In this document: positions 17,676 through 24,599 of the stretch, piece by piece
How positions within the stretch are numbered: the stretch's first letter is position 1
How the letters are laid out: each line of letters starts with the position of its first letter
NCBI GenBank assembly: GCA_020629135.1
Contig: JAHDDX010000029.1
Coordinates: 1 to 32,207, forward strand
Origin: Hellea sp.
GTDB taxonomy: Bacteria; Pseudomonadota; Alphaproteobacteria; Caulobacterales; Maricaulaceae
DNA: 32,207 bases
Direction: 5' to 3'
Notes under the pieces: model-generated
What the model saw: the letters and a program-made list of their open reading frames with translations, nothing else
Databases searched by the model: none
Told to the model about the DNA's origin: nothing
Made by a program: the position numbers and the translations under genes

Positions 17676-17746
17676 CTGTAACCTATCCAATCCTTAACTC
17701 GGTGAATTAAACGATCCCGCGTAGTCTGAGCCAAAAGGACGAGACT

Positions 17747-18268
17747 ATGAAACAGATTATTGGATTAATAATTGGCACGACAGTTTTAATTGCGACATCG
17801 GCCATAGCCCAATCAAATAGCCCGCACTCCAATAATGACCTGATCGACTATGACGGATTTCTAACGCTCAGCCATGACGTTATGGAATATCGGGAATCAC
17901 GCCTGATCAGCCTCGACGAATTTAAACGCCTGTCAGAAATGCCGGACACGCTCGTGCTCGATACACGCTCGCAGATCGCCTATGAAATCGGACATATGAA
18001 AGGCGCGGTACATTTAAATTTTTCTGATTTCACGGACGAGAAGCTAGCCAAAGTCATTGGAAATAAAAACAAACGCATCCTCATTTATTGTAATAACAAC
18101 TTCACCAATGACTCGCCGCCATTTATGCTCAAACGCGCCGAGTTGGCGCTGAACATTCCAACCTTTATCAATCTATATGGATATGGGTATGAGAATATTT
18201 ATGAGCTGGGCGAAACCATTTCAATTGAAGATCCGGAGATCGTGACCAGCTTACAATCAACTCAGTGA
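17747..18268 (+). CDS. Exported rhodanese-like protein with atypical active-site loop
   Basis: A 173-residue protein with a signal peptide (cleavage near AIAQ, residue 22) and a single rhodanese domain: SLDEFKRLSEMPDTLVLDTR, GHMKGAVHLNFSDF, then the catalytic loop ILIYCNNNFTNDSP with Cys115. A canonical rhodanese loop is CxxGxR; here it is C-N-N-N-F, lacking the loop arginine, which is known from other exported rhodanese-like proteins. It lies 71 bp after ccmI and may be read from the same transcript or its own promoter. Periplasmic sulfur or disulfide chemistry would suit the neighbourhood, but its reaction is unknown. Confidence 0.85.
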   Translation: MKQIIGLIIGTTVLIATSAIAQSNSPHSNNDLIDYDGFLTLSHDVMEYRESRLISLDEFKRLSEMPDTLVLDTRSQIAYEIGHMKGAVHLNFSDFTDEKLAKVIGNKNKRILIYCNNNFTNDSPPFMLKRAELALNIPTFINLYGYGYENIYELGETISIEDPEIVTSLQSTQ

Positions 18269-20249: not shown

Positions 20250-21614
20250 CTAAAGCTGATTTAGTTGTAAAAAAATATCATCACTGGGACGCAGAGACAC
20301 ACTTATTGTGGGTTCAATATCAGTTTTTTGAGCCAAAGAAATTTGGTATTTTTTCAATAGATTAGCCACTAATAACATTGACTCCAGAACCGCAAAACTG
20401 GCTCCAATGCAGATACGAGGACCAGCTCCAAAAGGTAAGAAACTACGATTACCGGGTTTCGCCAATTCTGGATTTCGCAAAAACCGGTCCGGATCGAAAC
20501 TGTGTGGATTGTCCCAATATTTTTCGCTGCGATGCAATACGTAAATCGGGACCACAATGGTGTCCCCGGCTTTGATAGGCGTGCCATTCAAGGACGTGTC
20601 TTGCACGGCTTCGCGACCAATGATCGGAATCGAAGGATATAAGCGCAAAGTTTCATTTAATACGGCGCGCGTAAACGGCAATTGCGGCAAATCTTTGAAG
20701 CTGATTTTGTCTGGGAGTGATTGACCAAATATCTCTTGCCGGACTCGCGATTGAACTTCTGGATAGGCAGCCAAAAGATATAACATCCAGGTCAAAGTAA
20801 TCGCCGTCGATTCATGCCCCGCAATAAAAAACCCGATCAGATTATCTATCTGCTCAGTCAAGCTCAGTTGCGGAATGTCATGCTCTGAATGCGGTTGCGC
20901 CAAGAGGTGCACCAGGTTGATCTCTTCAGTACAAGTGCTCGCCTCTTCCAAAACCTGTCTGGCCCCTTCCCGCAAAGTGCGGATTGCGGTGGCGGACCTT
21001 GGGCTCATGAGACGAGGATACCAATCCGGCATGGGCAGAAAATCGTCAATACGCAAACGACCTACCGTTGAGATGGCAACATCAGCGGCCTGGCGCAGGG
21101 CTTGCCCCTTTGCGCCTTTCGGGTCTCCCAATAAGGCCTTGGATAATATGTCAAAACTGAGATCCGACATCGCCTCTTTGGCATTTATCTCTCGGATGTC
21201 AGATCTTCTGAGTTCATCTAAGAAAGCTTGAATCGCTTCATCGACGACAGATCCCAGTATTTGCATATGGCGGGGTCGAAATATGGGCGCAACGGCTTTG
21301 CGTTGACGACGCCATTGTTGGTCATGAGTTGTGATCAATCCTTCTCTGGCCACCGGTTCAATAATGCGCTGATTAAGTTTGGACTTTCTAAAATGTCTGA
21401 CCTTTTTGATAAGGAGTTCAGAAATCGCCTCCGCTTCTGTCAAAACATGCATTTTGACAAAAAGCGATTTGTGCTCGCTAATTCCCCCCTCATAGACGCC
21501 TGGCTGAAACCCTCGAAGAGGGTTTTGGATAAATGCCAAGCTGCGCAGTAACCCCTGGCATTGTTCAGCCAATGGCGCCGTATGAGGGGGGTGGGGCGCA
21601 GGCTCAGATAGCAA
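20250..21614 (-). CDS. Cytochrome P450, last gene of the luxI operon
   Basis: A 454-residue haem monooxygenase. The haem ligand loop is FLPFGAGPRICIG (Cys402), the oxygen-activating I-helix motif is AGHEST (265-270), the ExxR motif is ETLR (321-324), and a C-helix WRRQRK (101-106) contacts the haem. No membrane anchor is evident, so it is a soluble bacterial type that needs a ferredoxin and reductase encoded elsewhere. It hydroxylates or otherwise oxidises an unactivated carbon; the closeness of its FGAGPRICIG and ExxR regions to fatty-acid-type P450s suggests a lipid-like substrate, but that is a guess. Its ATG overlaps the oxygenase stop by 11 bases, so it is translationally coupled to the luxI cassette. 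Confidence 0.93.
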   Translation of the reverse strand: MLSEPAPHPPHTAPLAEQCQGLLRSLAFIQNPLRGFQPGVYEGGISEHKSLFVKMHVLTEAEAISELLIKKVRHFRKSKLNQRIIEPVAREGLITTHDQQWRRQRKAVAPIFRPRHMQILGSVVDEAIQAFLDELRRSDIREINAKEAMSDLSFDILSKALLGDPKGAKGQALRQAADVAISTVGRLRIDDFLPMPDWYPRLMSPRSATAIRTLREGARQVLEEASTCTEEINLVHLLAQPHSEHDIPQLSLTEQIDNLIGFFIAGHESTAITLTWMLYLLAAYPEVQSRVRQEIFGQSLPDKISFKDLPQLPFTRAVLNETLRLYPSIPIIGREAVQDTSLNGTPIKAGDTIVVPIYVLHRSEKYWDNPHSFDPDRFLRNPELAKPGNRSFLPFGAGPRICIGASFAVLESMLLVANLLKKYQISLAQKTDIEPTISVSLRPSDDIFLQLNQL

Positions 21615-22635
21615 TGTGATCGCTCCTAAAAAGAGGCGCGAGTTTTATTTCGGGCGCCGGTTTGGGCCAAACTAATGGGTAGTCCCGGCTATATAACGGC
21701 GTTCCGTCCGGTAATGGATTTGAAATATAGGGCTGAGGAATCGCCCCTGGCCGATCAAAATAACGAATATCGTCCCCGCAATACCGAAAAGATATAGCCC
21801 GACGAATTTGATCTTCGGACATATTACCTTTGGCCCCGTGAATTGTCAGGACATGGTGGATTATTACGTCACCCGGTTCGGCTTCCACGGTTACAATGTC
21901 ATAATCGTCGGGATTGGCTTCGATGTCAGGCAGTTTGGGGTCTGGGGCATCAAGCAATGGTGTTTGGGCTATAAAGACGTTTGGCGCAAAAGTATGTCCC
22001 CAAAGATGAGAACCTCTCACATATTGCATGGCACCGGTCTTCCGGCTTGCTTTATCCAAGGGGATCCAGACCACGCAACATTTCAAGCCTTGAATTTGAA
22101 AATAGGTATAATCCTGATGAAATGTGGTTTTTTGCGGTGTATTCGGGCCTTTGACGAAAGTCGTATCTTCCCAGAAATTTAAATAGGATGTGTCGAGAAG
22201 TTTCGCGCAGAGCGGTGGGAGTTTGGAATCAAACGCAACGTCGCGAATCTCGTGGTGATTACGCCAACCGGCGGCCTCGTAAAAAAACATCCCTTCCCCA
22301 TTTAAATCGTGGTTTGATTTTTCACGAATAGGTCTGGCCGTTTCATCCTGTTTGATTATGTGCCGGTATAGCTCAAGATCAAACCGCATGGCTTCACCAG
22401 AATCGATATCGTCTTCATCTGACCACAATTGATAAGCAAGAGATTCAAAATCATATCCGGTTGTGGTCTTGGATTTGTTTCGGAGCTGTGCCCCGACGGC
22501 TTGCCTTAGATCGTGAACTTCAGATGGGTTCAAAACATCCTTCAAGTGAAGAAATCCGTCTTGATTAAATTGTGCGATATCCCTGGAAGATAGCACCTCA
22601 TCAGAAATATTTAGCAGGTTCACCATCTTATTCAT
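21604..22635 (-). CDS. Phytanoyl-CoA dioxygenase (PhyH) family oxygenase
   Basis: A 343-residue Fe(II)/2-oxoglutarate-dependent oxygenase. The iron triad is His173-x-Asp175 in TTFHQDYTYFQ and the distal His266 in VLTIHGAKG; Arg278/279 or Arg284 in RRAISFRYCGDD would bind 2-oxoglutarate. AMQYVRGSHLWG is another PhyH family block. Members hydroxylate, desaturate, halogenate or epoxidise lipids and natural products. The ATG at 22635 overlaps the small protein's stop by eight bases (ATGAATAA); a second in-frame ATG is three codons on. It sits between luxI and the P450 on the same transcript, so its product or substrate is probably connected to the signal made by LuxI or to a metabolite under its control. 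Confidence 0.93.
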   Translation of the reverse strand: MNKMVNLLNISDEVLSSRDIAQFNQDGFLHLKDVLNPSEVHDLRQAVGAQLRNKSKTTTGYDFESLAYQLWSDEDDIDSGEAMRFDLELYRHIIKQDETARPIREKSNHDLNGEGMFFYEAAGWRNHHEIRDVAFDSKLPPLCAKLLDTSYLNFWEDTTFVKGPNTPQKTTFHQDYTYFQIQGLKCCVVWIPLDKASRKTGAMQYVRGSHLWGHTFAPNVFIAQTPLLDAPDPKLPDIEANPDDYDIVTVEAEPGDVIIHHVLTIHGAKGNMSEDQIRRAISFRYCGDDIRYFDRPGAIPQPYISNPLPDGTPLYSRDYPLVWPKPAPEIKLAPLFRSDHIAI

Positions 22636-22894
22636 CGTCCAATAGTTTTCTGGAAAACACTTTCAAGTGGTTCAAAAACTCCCGTTCAAAAGCGTCTTTA
22701 TATTTTGCGTGGGTCAGGAAGTATTGCATGTCATCCATTATACTTCGGCCGCGCTCCGAATAGGTCGTTTCGGCGTTTTCAGATATTAGATTAGATGCGT
22801 TACGGTCATATTCTCGGTACAGCTCATCGGCCGTCTGCCGGTCATAATATTCCTGAAAGCTCGCAATATTATTGCTATCGTCCATCTGGCTCAT
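22628..22894 (-). CDS. Unrecognised 88-residue protein between luxI and phyH
   Basis: I do not recognise this family. The peptide is acidic and charged, rich in Asp, Glu, Arg and Tyr, and looks helical throughout: IASFQEYYDRQTADELYREY, then TTYSERGRSIMDDMQYFLTH and FEREFLNHLKVFSRKLLDDE. There are no cysteines, signal peptide or membrane helix. It is a real gene by context: its ATG is one base after the luxI stop (TGATATG), AGGCGG gives a ribosome binding site, and its stop overlaps the PhyH start. A second ATG is three codons on. A helical partner or carrier for the synthase or oxygenases, or an antiactivator of LuxR, are possible roles, none shown by the sequence. The longer frame to 23038 overlaps luxI and is rejected. 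Confidence 0.75.
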   Translation of the reverse strand: MSQMDDSNNIASFQEYYDRQTADELYREYDRNASNLISENAETTYSERGRSIMDDMQYFLTHAKYKDAFEREFLNHLKVFSRKLLDDE

Positions 22895-22895
22895 A

Positions 22896-23537
22896 TCAGG
22901 CCGCCTTTCGGGCTGAGCGGACTGGCAGATCTTGCAAGGTTTCTGACCAGTCAATTTTGACAAATTTTCGCAATCGCCCAATGGCGGCCTCGTCCGTATC
23001 CATAATTGCAGCAATATAATCTTGGTCATCATCTTCATAATGAACCGGATATCCGAGCGGGCGTGTTCGCCAGACCACGACTGATTTTGTGTAACGGGTT
23101 TTGTGGCTCAGCCAGGTCACTTTACGAATGCCGCTGGCGACGACAAATTTTGTCACGGCCAAACACATTTGCAGATATAATTGAACCTGCTGGTAATGGG
23201 TAAGTTGGTCCTTATCGACGACAAAACGGGATAACTCCCAGATATCCTTGCCTCTGGGGACGCCTGAAAATTCGCAATGATGCGGGAAAATCTCGCTCAG
23301 CAAATGAGGTTCAGTCGTTGTGTTTAATCGAGAGCACGCAACCAAATTATCGTTGTCATCATAGACCAGAACATATTGCGTGTCAGGCCGATCAAATTGA
23401 TCTTTATCGCGACCATCCTGACAATTGGGCAGATTCCAACCCCAATTCAGTACGGCGACTTTGTAACGAAGACGATAGATTAGCTCTAACTCATCTTCTG
23501 GGATTTCACTTCCGGACTGAATTACAAAATATACCAT
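22896..23537 (-). CDS. luxI: Acyl-homoserine-lactone synthase (LuxI family)
   Basis: A 213-residue autoinducer synthase that makes an N-acyl-homoserine lactone from S-adenosylmethionine and an acyl-ACP or acyl-CoA. The LuxI invariant residues are present: Arg24 in YRLRYKV, Trp34, Asp46 and Asp49 in DKDQFD, Arg70 in ACSRL, and Glu101 and Arg104 in WELSRF. Length is normal. The acyl chain cannot be predicted. The ATG at 23535-23537 lies in the base of a hairpin whose loop is the ribosome binding site, and a GC palindrome lies 51 bp upstream. LuxR is encoded directly upstream on the same strand, and three further genes follow with coupling. luxI is used here as the family name. Confidence 0.96.
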   Translation of the reverse strand: MVYFVIQSGSEIPEDELELIYRLRYKVAVLNWGWNLPNCQDGRDKDQFDRPDTQYVLVYDDNDNLVACSRLNTTTEPHLLSEIFPHHCEFSGVPRGKDIWELSRFVVDKDQLTHYQQVQLYLQMCLAVTKFVVASGIRKVTWLSHKTRYTKSVVVWRTRPLGYPVHYEDDDQDYIAAIMDTDEAAIGRLRKFVKIDWSETLQDLPVRSARKAA

Positions 23538-23563
23538 TTCCAGCTTTCCTCAGCTGGAAAATG
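23535..23563 (-). promoter_or_regulatory. luxI: Hairpin enclosing the luxI ribosome binding site and start codon
   Basis: On the minus strand, TTTCCAGCT (23560-23552) pairs perfectly with AGCTGGAAA (23545-23537) around the loop GAGGAA (23551-23546). The loop is the Shine-Dalgarno sequence. The A of the ATG is the last base of the nine-pair stem; past one unpaired T, CA pairs with the remaining TG of the start codon. The ribosome binding site is thus displayed in a loop while the start codon is paired, suggesting translational control of signal synthesis by structure, an RNA-binding protein or a small RNA. Confidence 0.6.
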
Positions 23564-23588
23564 TCGAAAAACGCAGATGGTCTCAATT

Positions 23589-23602
23589 CCCCCGAATGGG
23601 GG
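23589..23602. promoter_or_regulatory. Candidate lux box upstream of luxI
   Basis: CCCCC-GAAT-GGGGG is a perfect 5-4-5 palindrome whose centre is about 58 bp upstream of the luxI ATG, the position expected of a LuxR-type site overlapping -35 if transcription starts near 23553. It is the only strong palindrome between luxR and luxI besides the start-codon hairpin. It could instead be a short terminator stem for luxR, whose stop is 12 bp away, but no T-run follows on the minus strand. The arms differ from the classical CTG...CAG lux box. Confidence 0.4.
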
Positions 23603-23614
23603 TATTTTGATGGC

Positions 23615-24355
23615 TTACGGGATTATCAAGCCTTTTCGAATAGCCGTGGAGACTGAATGGGCACGGTTTACCGTATCGAGTTTTTTAGAAATATTTTTTA
23701 GATAGGCTTTGACGGATTCTTCACTCAATCCCAAAATCGTGGCAATTTCCCAATTGGTTTTGCCTTCGGCCACAAAATGCATCACTTCAGTTTCGCGCTT
23801 AGACAAATGACCCAGCCCATATTCACTGCTGAGACCTTTAATTTTGACCAAATGCATATAGCAGCTGATCGAAACGAGTTCGATCATTGCCAGGACTTTC
23901 GGGTCTTCTGGAATATCGTCACACCCTAGCGACGCACACCCTAATGGGCCCGTGCCTGTCGTGATGGGAAAAGCAATACCATTGGTGAAACCATATTCAC
24001 GACTTTCATCGATTATTTTACGCCCAAATTTAGATGCATGGCGATAGGCTGTATCCCAGGAAAATGGTTTCCGAGTTTTCAAAAGATATTGGATGACTGG
24101 ATCATGTTCCATATACCCGCTGGTCCACCAGTGCTGCCCCCATTCTTCGGACCAGGTGGAAATAAAAATCTGCGATGCCGGATCCTGTAATAGATGGGGG
24201 TTAGCTAACTGGCACATCGCGACCGATGTGAAACCGTAATTTTGAACAAAGCCGAAATATACGCTCAACACGTCTTTCGGTGTTGTCGTTTCTTCTATCT
24301 GGTCGATTGTTTCCAGCCCAGTCGTCGCCAGCTCCAAATATTGTATGGCCCCCAT
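23615..24355 (-). CDS. luxR: LuxR family quorum-sensing transcriptional regulator
   Basis: A 246-residue receptor. The N-terminal autoinducer-binding domain (about 20-165) has the signature residues: TWSEEWGQHWWTSGYMEHDPV contains the Trp/Tyr/Asp set that lines the AHL pocket, followed by FSWDTAYRH and GFTNGIAFPI. The C-terminal helix-turn-helix (about 180-240) reads LSKRETEVMHFVAEGKTNWE, IATILGLSEESVKAYLKNIS, normal for the family. It should bind the AHL made by the adjacent LuxI and control the luxI cassette. The ATG at 24355 has only a weak ribosome binding site (CGGGAT), and two tiny frames precede it, hinting at translational control. A 77-bp gap separates it from luxI. Confidence 0.95.
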   Translation of the reverse strand: MGAIQYLELATTGLETIDQIEETTTPKDVLSVYFGFVQNYGFTSVAMCQLANPHLLQDPASQIFISTWSEEWGQHWWTSGYMEHDPVIQYLLKTRKPFSWDTAYRHASKFGRKIIDESREYGFTNGIAFPITTGTGPLGCASLGCDDIPEDPKVLAMIELVSISCYMHLVKIKGLSSEYGLGHLSKRETEVMHFVAEGKTNWEIATILGLSEESVKAYLKNISKKLDTVNRAHSVSTAIRKGLIIP

Positions 24356-24409
24356 ATCCCGTTTGGCCAGTTAGATATTAGACATAGTGATTGCGCTCCA
24401 TAGTTCAAC

Positions 24410-24478
24410 TTAAATCGTGGTCATCGGGGGAAATGACGAATTCATTCAATTCGCCAATTGAGCGAATATTAACATCAT
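24410..24478 (-). promoter_or_regulatory. Two short leader frames upstream of luxR
   Basis: On the minus strand AGGAG (24487-24483) precedes two consecutive ATGs that open a ten-residue frame, MMLIFAQLAN, ending at 24446. Its TGA is followed at once by another ATG (24445) opening MNSSFPPMTTI, ending at 24410. luxR starts 54 bases later. The ribosome binding site is the best in the area, yet leads only to these peptides. The palindrome TCAATT-CGCC-AATTGA (24446-24461) overlaps the end of the first frame. This may be a leader-peptide element, an operator, or the relic of a decayed gene. The rest of 24356-24599 shows nothing recognisable. Confidence 0.35.
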
Positions 24479-24599
24479 ATTTCTCCTAATGCACGAATTT
24501 TAAATTCAAGCACAACAAGCGTTTAGGCAGGCGTCATCCAGCGGGCGCCTCATTCATCATAAAGTTAAGTGGAATTCGCGAGCAAATCCGCGACAAAAA

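Follow-up and report, generated by a model that had tools for sequence, protein, structure and literature searches.

In IS10/Tn10 and in the early transcripts of phage T4 lysozyme, RNA made from an outside promoter folds up the start region of the gene. RNA from the gene's own promoter begins within the hairpin, and there the region is unpaired. For IS10/Tn10, this fold-back inhibition was reportedly described by Davis, Simons and Kleckner in 1985. In the RNA thermometers of lasI and rhlAB, the structure lies within the mRNA that it controls and opens on warming. In Pseudomonas, these thermometers are described together with RhlS, a small RNA from the rhlI 5'-UTR, and asRhlS at rhlR-rhlI (PMC6786874). 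In Sinorhizobium, sinI is controlled by RNase E, Hfq and RcsR1, according to a review (PMC7143759).

Here we describe a hairpin at the start of luxI in a stretch of 32,207 nt from Hellea sp. (the window). It is like IS10/Tn10 and phage T4 lysozyme in that it is predicted in outside-promoter RNA only. Unlike these, it would protect an autoinducer synthase that is under positive feedback, as predicted from sequence, and it recurs with unrelated sequences across Alphaproteobacteria. With the lasI/rhlAB thermometers it shares a start region, of a luxI-type gene or quorum-sensing-controlled operon, that is structured in RNA; in contrast to them, the mRNA from the gene's own promoter is predicted to lack it, and its predicted barrier changes little from 37 to 42 °C. 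RhlS/asRhlS offer a parallel in post-transcriptional control in the leader between rhlR and rhlI, where the rhlI 5' UTR uses a terminator and small RNAs, whereas luxI here has an SD (Shine-Dalgarno) hairpin at the promoter start. As with sinI of Sinorhizobium meliloti, an alphaproteobacterial luxI would be regulated after transcription; sinI undergoes cleavage and is acted on by a trans-acting small RNA in its 5' UTR, and the available text of the review does not mention a read-through hairpin (PMC7143759). A luxI-start hairpin was not described among the matches listed for searches on luxI leaders, sinI, lux-box starts, thermometers, read-through hairpins and IS elements, which covered titles and abstract openings, with subscription papers mostly outside.

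Materials and methods

Protein and family searches supplied the luxI loci whose leaders were analysed, and starts were picked by one rule (start codon plus SD). The same start-scoring rule was applied to luxI and control starts, and annotation was not used. The discovery set of 125 loci with a luxI start gave 102 distinct leaders, which fell into 78 clusters (<75% identity). For replication, 154 new loci were collected, 150 of them with a luxI match, yielding 149 leaders in 132 clusters, of which 115 were alphaproteobacterial. Tandem alphaproteobacterial leader clusters, with luxR upstream in the same direction, numbered 145 (60 discovery, 85 replication). Controls were 192 starts from the discovery loci and 209 in replication (401 pooled). 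Fold stability was expressed as a z-score for positions -45..+6 and opening cost was calculated for -16..+3 (kcal/mol).

Fold, opening-cost and start-scoring settings of the discovery set were kept in replication. Detection of luxI used tblastn in discovery and an HMM built from the discovery set in replication. The limit on the tandem gap was 200 nt in discovery (gaps found, 61-178 nt) and 250 nt in replication (32-224 nt). The tandem idea arose from viewing the discovery leaders, and therefore only the replication set tests it. The p-values given throughout are not from independent samples, because leaders are related to one another.

A single-protein scan of genome contigs for LuxI relatives found none, and an alignment-based scan of genome contigs gave 29 loci. 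A class-wide LuxI protein search at E 1e-30 returned the window alone (1 of 385 genomes). Eight plasmid loci with annotated starts gave mixed results; the annotated start of one, L284, lies inside its LuxI match.

Results

The luxR-luxI locus

The host genome of the window comprises 2.76 Mb and is 84.8% complete. The luxI product is a LuxI-type autoinducer synthase (PF00765, 70.4 bits against a gathering cut-off of 24), and the most similar LuxI proteins among named records are from Hellea and Robiginitomaculum metagenome-assembled genomes, followed by Hyphomonas. luxR and luxI stand in tandem on the minus strand (Table 1). Downstream of luxI (20250-22894, minus strand) comes first a short ORF that matches no Pfam family, then a gene for a PhyH-like dioxygenase and one for a cytochrome P450. 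The Sphingobium plasmid locus L281 has the gene order luxR-luxR-luxI-phyH, so that a luxI-linked PhyH recurs. Between luxR and luxI, the single match of a terminator scan on this strand is the hairpin itself.

Table 1. Features of the luxR-luxI region, in window coordinates.
Feature	Position	Strand	Basis
luxR (Autoind_bind + GerE), immediately 5' of luxI, same direction	23615..24355	-	ORF; Pfam PF03472 E 2.9e-25, PF00196 E 2.7e-18
Possible outer helix, 3' side TATTTTG; partner CAAAATA 23603-23609	23525..23531	-	inverted repeat; MFE of 23480-23614
Lux-box-like palindrome ATACCCCCATTCGGGGGAAT, centre 58 nt 5' of luxI ATG	23586..23605	-	palindrome search + sequence
-35-like TTGAGA, box centre +9	23581..23586	-	sequence; -35 signal at +8/+9 in discovery only
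-10-like CATTTT, 17 bp after -35-like element, overlaps start of hairpin 5' arm	23558..23563	-	sequence
Hairpin 5' arm TTTCCAGCT	23552..23560	-	fold + inverted repeat
Predicted luxI transcription start, box centre +43/+44	23551..23552	-	box + -10 element
Loop GAGGAA, likely luxI Shine-Dalgarno	23546..23551	-	fold
Hairpin 3' arm AGCTGGAAA; final A = A of ATG	23537..23545	-	fold + inverted repeat
luxI ATG	23537-23535	-	
luxI, acyl-homoserine-lactone synthase, 213 aa	22896..23537	-	Pfam PF00765 E 1.8e-19

A hairpin on the luxI start

A first-pass annotation of this DNA had drawn nine pairs around a GAGGAA loop taken to be the ribosome binding site. Folding bears this out: TTTCCAGCT-GAGGAA-AGCTGGAAA (23560-23537, minus strand) forms nine perfect pairs with the SD in the loop, at -16.1 kcal/mol for a 41-nt stretch (0 of 200 dinucleotide shuffles as stable, z -4.5). 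The hairpin is kept in longer stretches with a smaller excess over shuffles (81 nt, z -2.4, 3 of 200 shuffles as stable; 86 nt, z -1.4, 17 of 200; 135 nt, z -1.5, 16 of 200). At the stem base, the A of the ATG is the final nucleotide of the nine-pair stem, as had been drawn. The bulge (U23561) followed by two pairs with the T and G of the ATG is the one detail that differs, this variant reaching -14.3 kcal/mol against -16.1 for the optimum, in which A23564/C23563 pair with 23533/23534 across a 2x2 internal loop; the place of the A is the same in both. The outer helix CAAAATA/TATTTTG could close round the hairpin and further lock read-through RNA. Two other leaders (L057 and L058) have a stem directly next to the ATG, similar to that of the window, in which GCGAACTC pairs with GAGTTCGC.

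This is the sole perfect stem of at least nine pairs (loop 3-10 nt) across the 32 kb window, where a mean of 1.45 is expected by chance (20 window shuffles). One such stem somewhere in the window is unsurprising; its location exactly on the luxI start is surprising, as the annotation had argued. Among the 192 control starts of the discovery loci, 4.7% had as high an opening cost and 6.2% as low a fold z. The expected number of stems, the mild excess of the longer stretches over shuffles and a percentile of 0.136 in the chimera test described below (not significant taken alone) would all suit a chance fold without effect in the window, whatever holds elsewhere. Against these stands the position of the stem, on the very start where relatives carry unrelated hairpins, and we consider a chance fold improbable.

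The predicted opening cost in the window was 20.2, 17.0, 14.8 and 13.3 kcal/mol at 20, 30, 37 and 42 °C, respectively. With the SD in the loop and so small a predicted change with temperature, an RNA thermometer (ROSE, fourU) is improbable. Positions 22300-24500 gave no match to any Rfam 15 covariance model with E up to 1. Binding of CsrA/RsmA to the loop GGA, which the annotation had raised and which would repress luxI, has the GGA of GAGGAA to recommend it; with no csrA match in the host genome (84.8% complete) and one in only 2 of 137 family genomes, it is almost certainly not the explanation.

Start-region structure in luxI leaders

In the discovery set, the 78 luxI clusters were more strongly folded than the 192 controls (fold z -1.42 vs 0.26, p 3.6e-15) and costlier to open (13.0 vs 8.2 kcal/mol, p 5e-13). 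The 85 tandem clusters of the replication set had a fold z of -1.81, compared with 0.10 in 209 controls (p 1.3e-21). Structure as a common property of starts that closely follow a co-directional gene was rejected, being absent in 75 matched controls with such a gene 40-200 nt upstream (tandem leaders vs matched controls, p 6e-15 for z and 2.8e-14 for opening cost). One matched control, a rhodanese-like gene of the window starting at 17747 (plus strand), has a fold upstream (~17700-17750) with z -3.0 and an opening cost of just 8.0.

The 90th percentile of opening cost in the 401 controls was exceeded by 74 of the 145 tandem leaders and by 12 of the 48 others, and a z of -2 or less was found in 65 of 145 tandem leaders vs 33 of 401 controls. 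About half of the tandem leaders thus lie within the control range of opening cost.

Relatives were examined individually for the pairing, whose absence from them the annotation had named as a point against its reading. Among the relatives L002-L006 (family search; LuxI 63 to 32% identical to that of the window), the four with luxR upstream (L002, L003, L004 and L006) have SD hairpins of unrelated sequence with opening costs of 11.1-14.3 kcal/mol, each only at about the 82nd-91st percentile of controls. In L005 no luxR was found upstream and there is no clear lux box; its opening cost is 7.8. Across the wider sets, SD-covering hairpins of other sequences likewise recur in luxI leaders with an adjoining luxR, and the outcome of this check did not speak against a gate.

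The 17 non-alphaproteobacterial clusters of the replication set did not, as a group, differ from controls in fold z, an unfair test because only 2 of the 17 are tandem (15 are not). One of the non-alphaproteobacterial leaders, L209, has a very strong hairpin unlike its group (z -7.1, opening cost 20.4).

The hairpin goes with an adjacent luxR

Tandem leaders of the discovery set (n=60) had an opening cost of 14.3 vs 8.3 in the other 18 (p 1.4e-4); for these 18 against controls, p was 0.52 for opening cost and 0.04 for z. In replication, the 30 non-tandem leaders (z -1.20) were more strongly folded than controls (p 9e-5) and more weakly than tandem leaders (p 0.0014). The 48 non-tandem leaders were then split by the presence of luxR within 1 kb. 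No luxR was found at this distance for 33, whose opening cost of 9.0 was control-like (p 0.23) and differed from that of tandem leaders (p 1.5e-6); their fold z was still slightly low (p 6e-4). The remaining 15, with luxR beside luxI in another arrangement, had a pooled opening cost of 13.4. Twelve of these were replication loci with a median of 13.9, not different from tandem leaders (p 0.94), and three were discovery loci (7.2). Among loci with a divergent luxR upstream of luxI, four of five (L140, L149, L151 and L176; not L181) had opening costs of 12.5-16.0, and the LuxR of L140, L149 and L176 is confirmed by Pfam matches to both of its domains.

A feature of tandem luxR-luxI order alone was therefore rejected, since replication loci with luxR nearby in other arrangements share it: the hairpin goes with luxI sitting beside luxR, and tandem order is not a strict condition. 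As the hairpin is also present at loci with a divergent luxR, it cannot be guarding against luxR read-through alone.

Four named plasmid loci that have luxR upstream varied. Opening costs were high in L279 and L281, but with a shuffle z of only -1.2 and -0.9, and were not high in L280 and L282. At L286 (~1450-1500), a plasmid luxI of Bradyrhizobium sp. SK17 behind a RES-domain gene, there is a strong start hairpin (opening cost 19.5 kcal/mol), so that the upstream gene need not be luxR.

Leader-specific pairing

The SD side of the hairpin is nearly constant, so plain SD complementarity could mimic it. A chimera test was therefore done, in which each 3' half was folded with the 5' halves of other leaders of the same set. 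Native tandem leaders were more stable than chimeras in discovery (-16.4 vs -11.9 kcal/mol, n=60, p 2.3e-10, mean gain 4.5) and in replication (-15.9 vs -10.9 kcal/mol, n=85, p 2.8e-13, mean gain 5.0). The gain was 1.7 kcal/mol in non-tandem leaders (n=48, p 0.004), and control starts showed no difference between native and chimeric folds (-11.82 vs -11.82, n=200, p 0.34). Judged by these sequence comparisons, the two halves of a leader tend to suit each other, the trace expected of compensatory evolution. The test speaks against generic pyrimidine-SD complementarity as the whole explanation.

The chimera result also bears on two non-translational roles for the hairpin sequence, as an operator at which a repressor binds the DNA or as an intrinsic terminator or attenuator. 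It is a perfect palindrome over the -10 and start region, and the terminator scan flagged it (23560-23537), one of 7 terminator-like sites in the region vs 3.7 in shuffles. However, in the leaders listed the sequence varies from cluster to cluster and the 3' arm in most cases overlaps the SD, and pairing that is leader-specific on a near-fixed SD side would be expected if RNA pairs, but not if the leaders shared an operator. As to a terminator, the tail TGGTATATTT is a poor U-tract and the 3' arm, by eye, mostly runs into coding sequence in the leaders listed. We regard an operator or terminator as highly improbable.

Promoter geometry at the lux box

A palindrome search of -80..-50 in discovery tandem leaders gave a score of at least 5.5 in 34 of 60, compared with 0 of 60 shuffled; 50 of 60 scored at least 4, with centres 52-74 nt before the start. 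Box detection in replication was noisy (33 of 85 with at least 5 vs 11 of 85 shuffled). In the 42 of 60 discovery leaders with a box score of at least 5, a -35-like signal was found at +8/+9 of the box centre and a -10-like hexamer at +31/+32 (0 of 5000 permutations as strong). Among the 27 replication leaders with a score of at least 5.5, the -10 element recurred at +32 (p 0.0026) and the -35 signal was not replicated (p 0.64).

We infer the transcription start, at about +43 of the box centre, from the usual distance between a -10 element and the start. The leader so predicted is ~15 nt in the window and has a median of 21 nt in the 42 leaders. Bases pairing with the SD peak at +35..+44, with 72% of their mass upstream of +42 (42 discovery leaders), and in replication at +39..+44, between the -10 element and the start. 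A correlation of arm with box position in discovery (r 0.51, p 5e-4) was not replicated (r 0.11, p 0.58).

When RNA was begun at +43, the opening cost fell from 14.5 to 5.5 in the 42 discovery leaders (controls, 8.6 to 5.9) and from 14.4 to 6.7 in 33 replication leaders (controls, 8.8 to 6.1), a result that leans on the predicted start, because any cut near the SD removes upstream partners. With cuts at +23 and +28 in replication it stayed at 14.5 and 14.2. For the window, RNA begun at the predicted start had an opening cost of 1.5 instead of 14.8 kcal/mol, and in L149, which has a divergent luxR and a box score of 8.5, truncation lowered it from 12.4 to 3.5. Since the predicted start falls at about the end of the 5' arm, lux-box RNA should lack the hairpin.

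The annotation had inferred that translation of luxI is gated by RNA structure as a second level of control beyond LuxR. The comparison among leaders backs a gate; a second level on LuxR-driven mRNA is doubtful, because the predicted promoter starts RNA near the 5'-arm end. Alternatively, luxI's own mRNA may carry the hairpin, if it has a longer leader made from another promoter or begins further upstream; the hairpin would then gate or slow translation until temperature, a small RNA, Hfq or a protein opens it. Such a gate would explain the hairpins at divergent-luxR loci as easily as read-through silencing does, the hairpin tracking a nearby luxR and not tandem order, and other luxI-type genes (lasI, rhlI and sinI) are under post-transcriptional control. 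The lux box and -10 element, however, allow only the short leaders given above, and the predicted barrier drops only from 14.8 to 13.3 kcal/mol between 37 and 42 °C. We consider a gate in luxI's own mRNA unlikely, if a serious rival.

Discussion

We judge the chances to be even that the hairpin is a read-through silencer of the autoinducer synthase, working like IS10 fold-back inhibition. RNA entering luxI from a promoter further upstream (in the window, that of luxR) would carry the hairpin, which would hide the luxI SD and start codon in a stem-loop, and such RNA would be poorly translated. RNA made when LuxR-AHL activates the lux-box promoter of luxI itself would start at about the end of the 5' arm with the short leader, could not form the hairpin and would be freely translated. 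The silencer would thus keep the positive feedback loop from leaking, the loop being opened only by LuxR-AHL at luxI's own promoter.

This reading draws on the computed hairpin, its recurrence with different sequences beside luxR, the leader-specific pairing and the geometry of lux box and -10 element. Pairing of the start region in upstream-promoter RNA, one mark of fold-back inhibition, is predicted for the window (opening cost 14.8 kcal/mol in read-through RNA) and for the box-bearing tandem sets. Like the transcription start, the occurrence of read-through RNA and a reduction of translation by the fold in living cells are inferred.

More generally, alphaproteobacterial luxI genes beside luxR may commonly carry an anti-SD arm embedded in their promoter and be translated only from RNA started at the lux box; this wider proposal is tentative, and we rate its chances as slightly short of even. 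In such an arm, bases between the -10 element and the start site would pair with the SD. Should luxI's own mRNA be the site of action, the recurrence of hairpins of unrelated sequence would still point to an undescribed layer of luxI control.

The read-through silencer touches a basic question in the design of quorum sensing, how an autoinducer synthase stays quiet below quorum, though luxR may be transcribed just upstream with no clear terminator between. An anti-SD arm in the promoter would be a compact answer, and would explain how luxI can lie behind luxR without being coupled to it. The arm could also be copied in synthetic circuits, where a gene would be insulated from read-through. If true, the promoter-embedded arm would be a general, sequence-independent design that makes the feedback loop leak-proof against any other transcription entering luxI.
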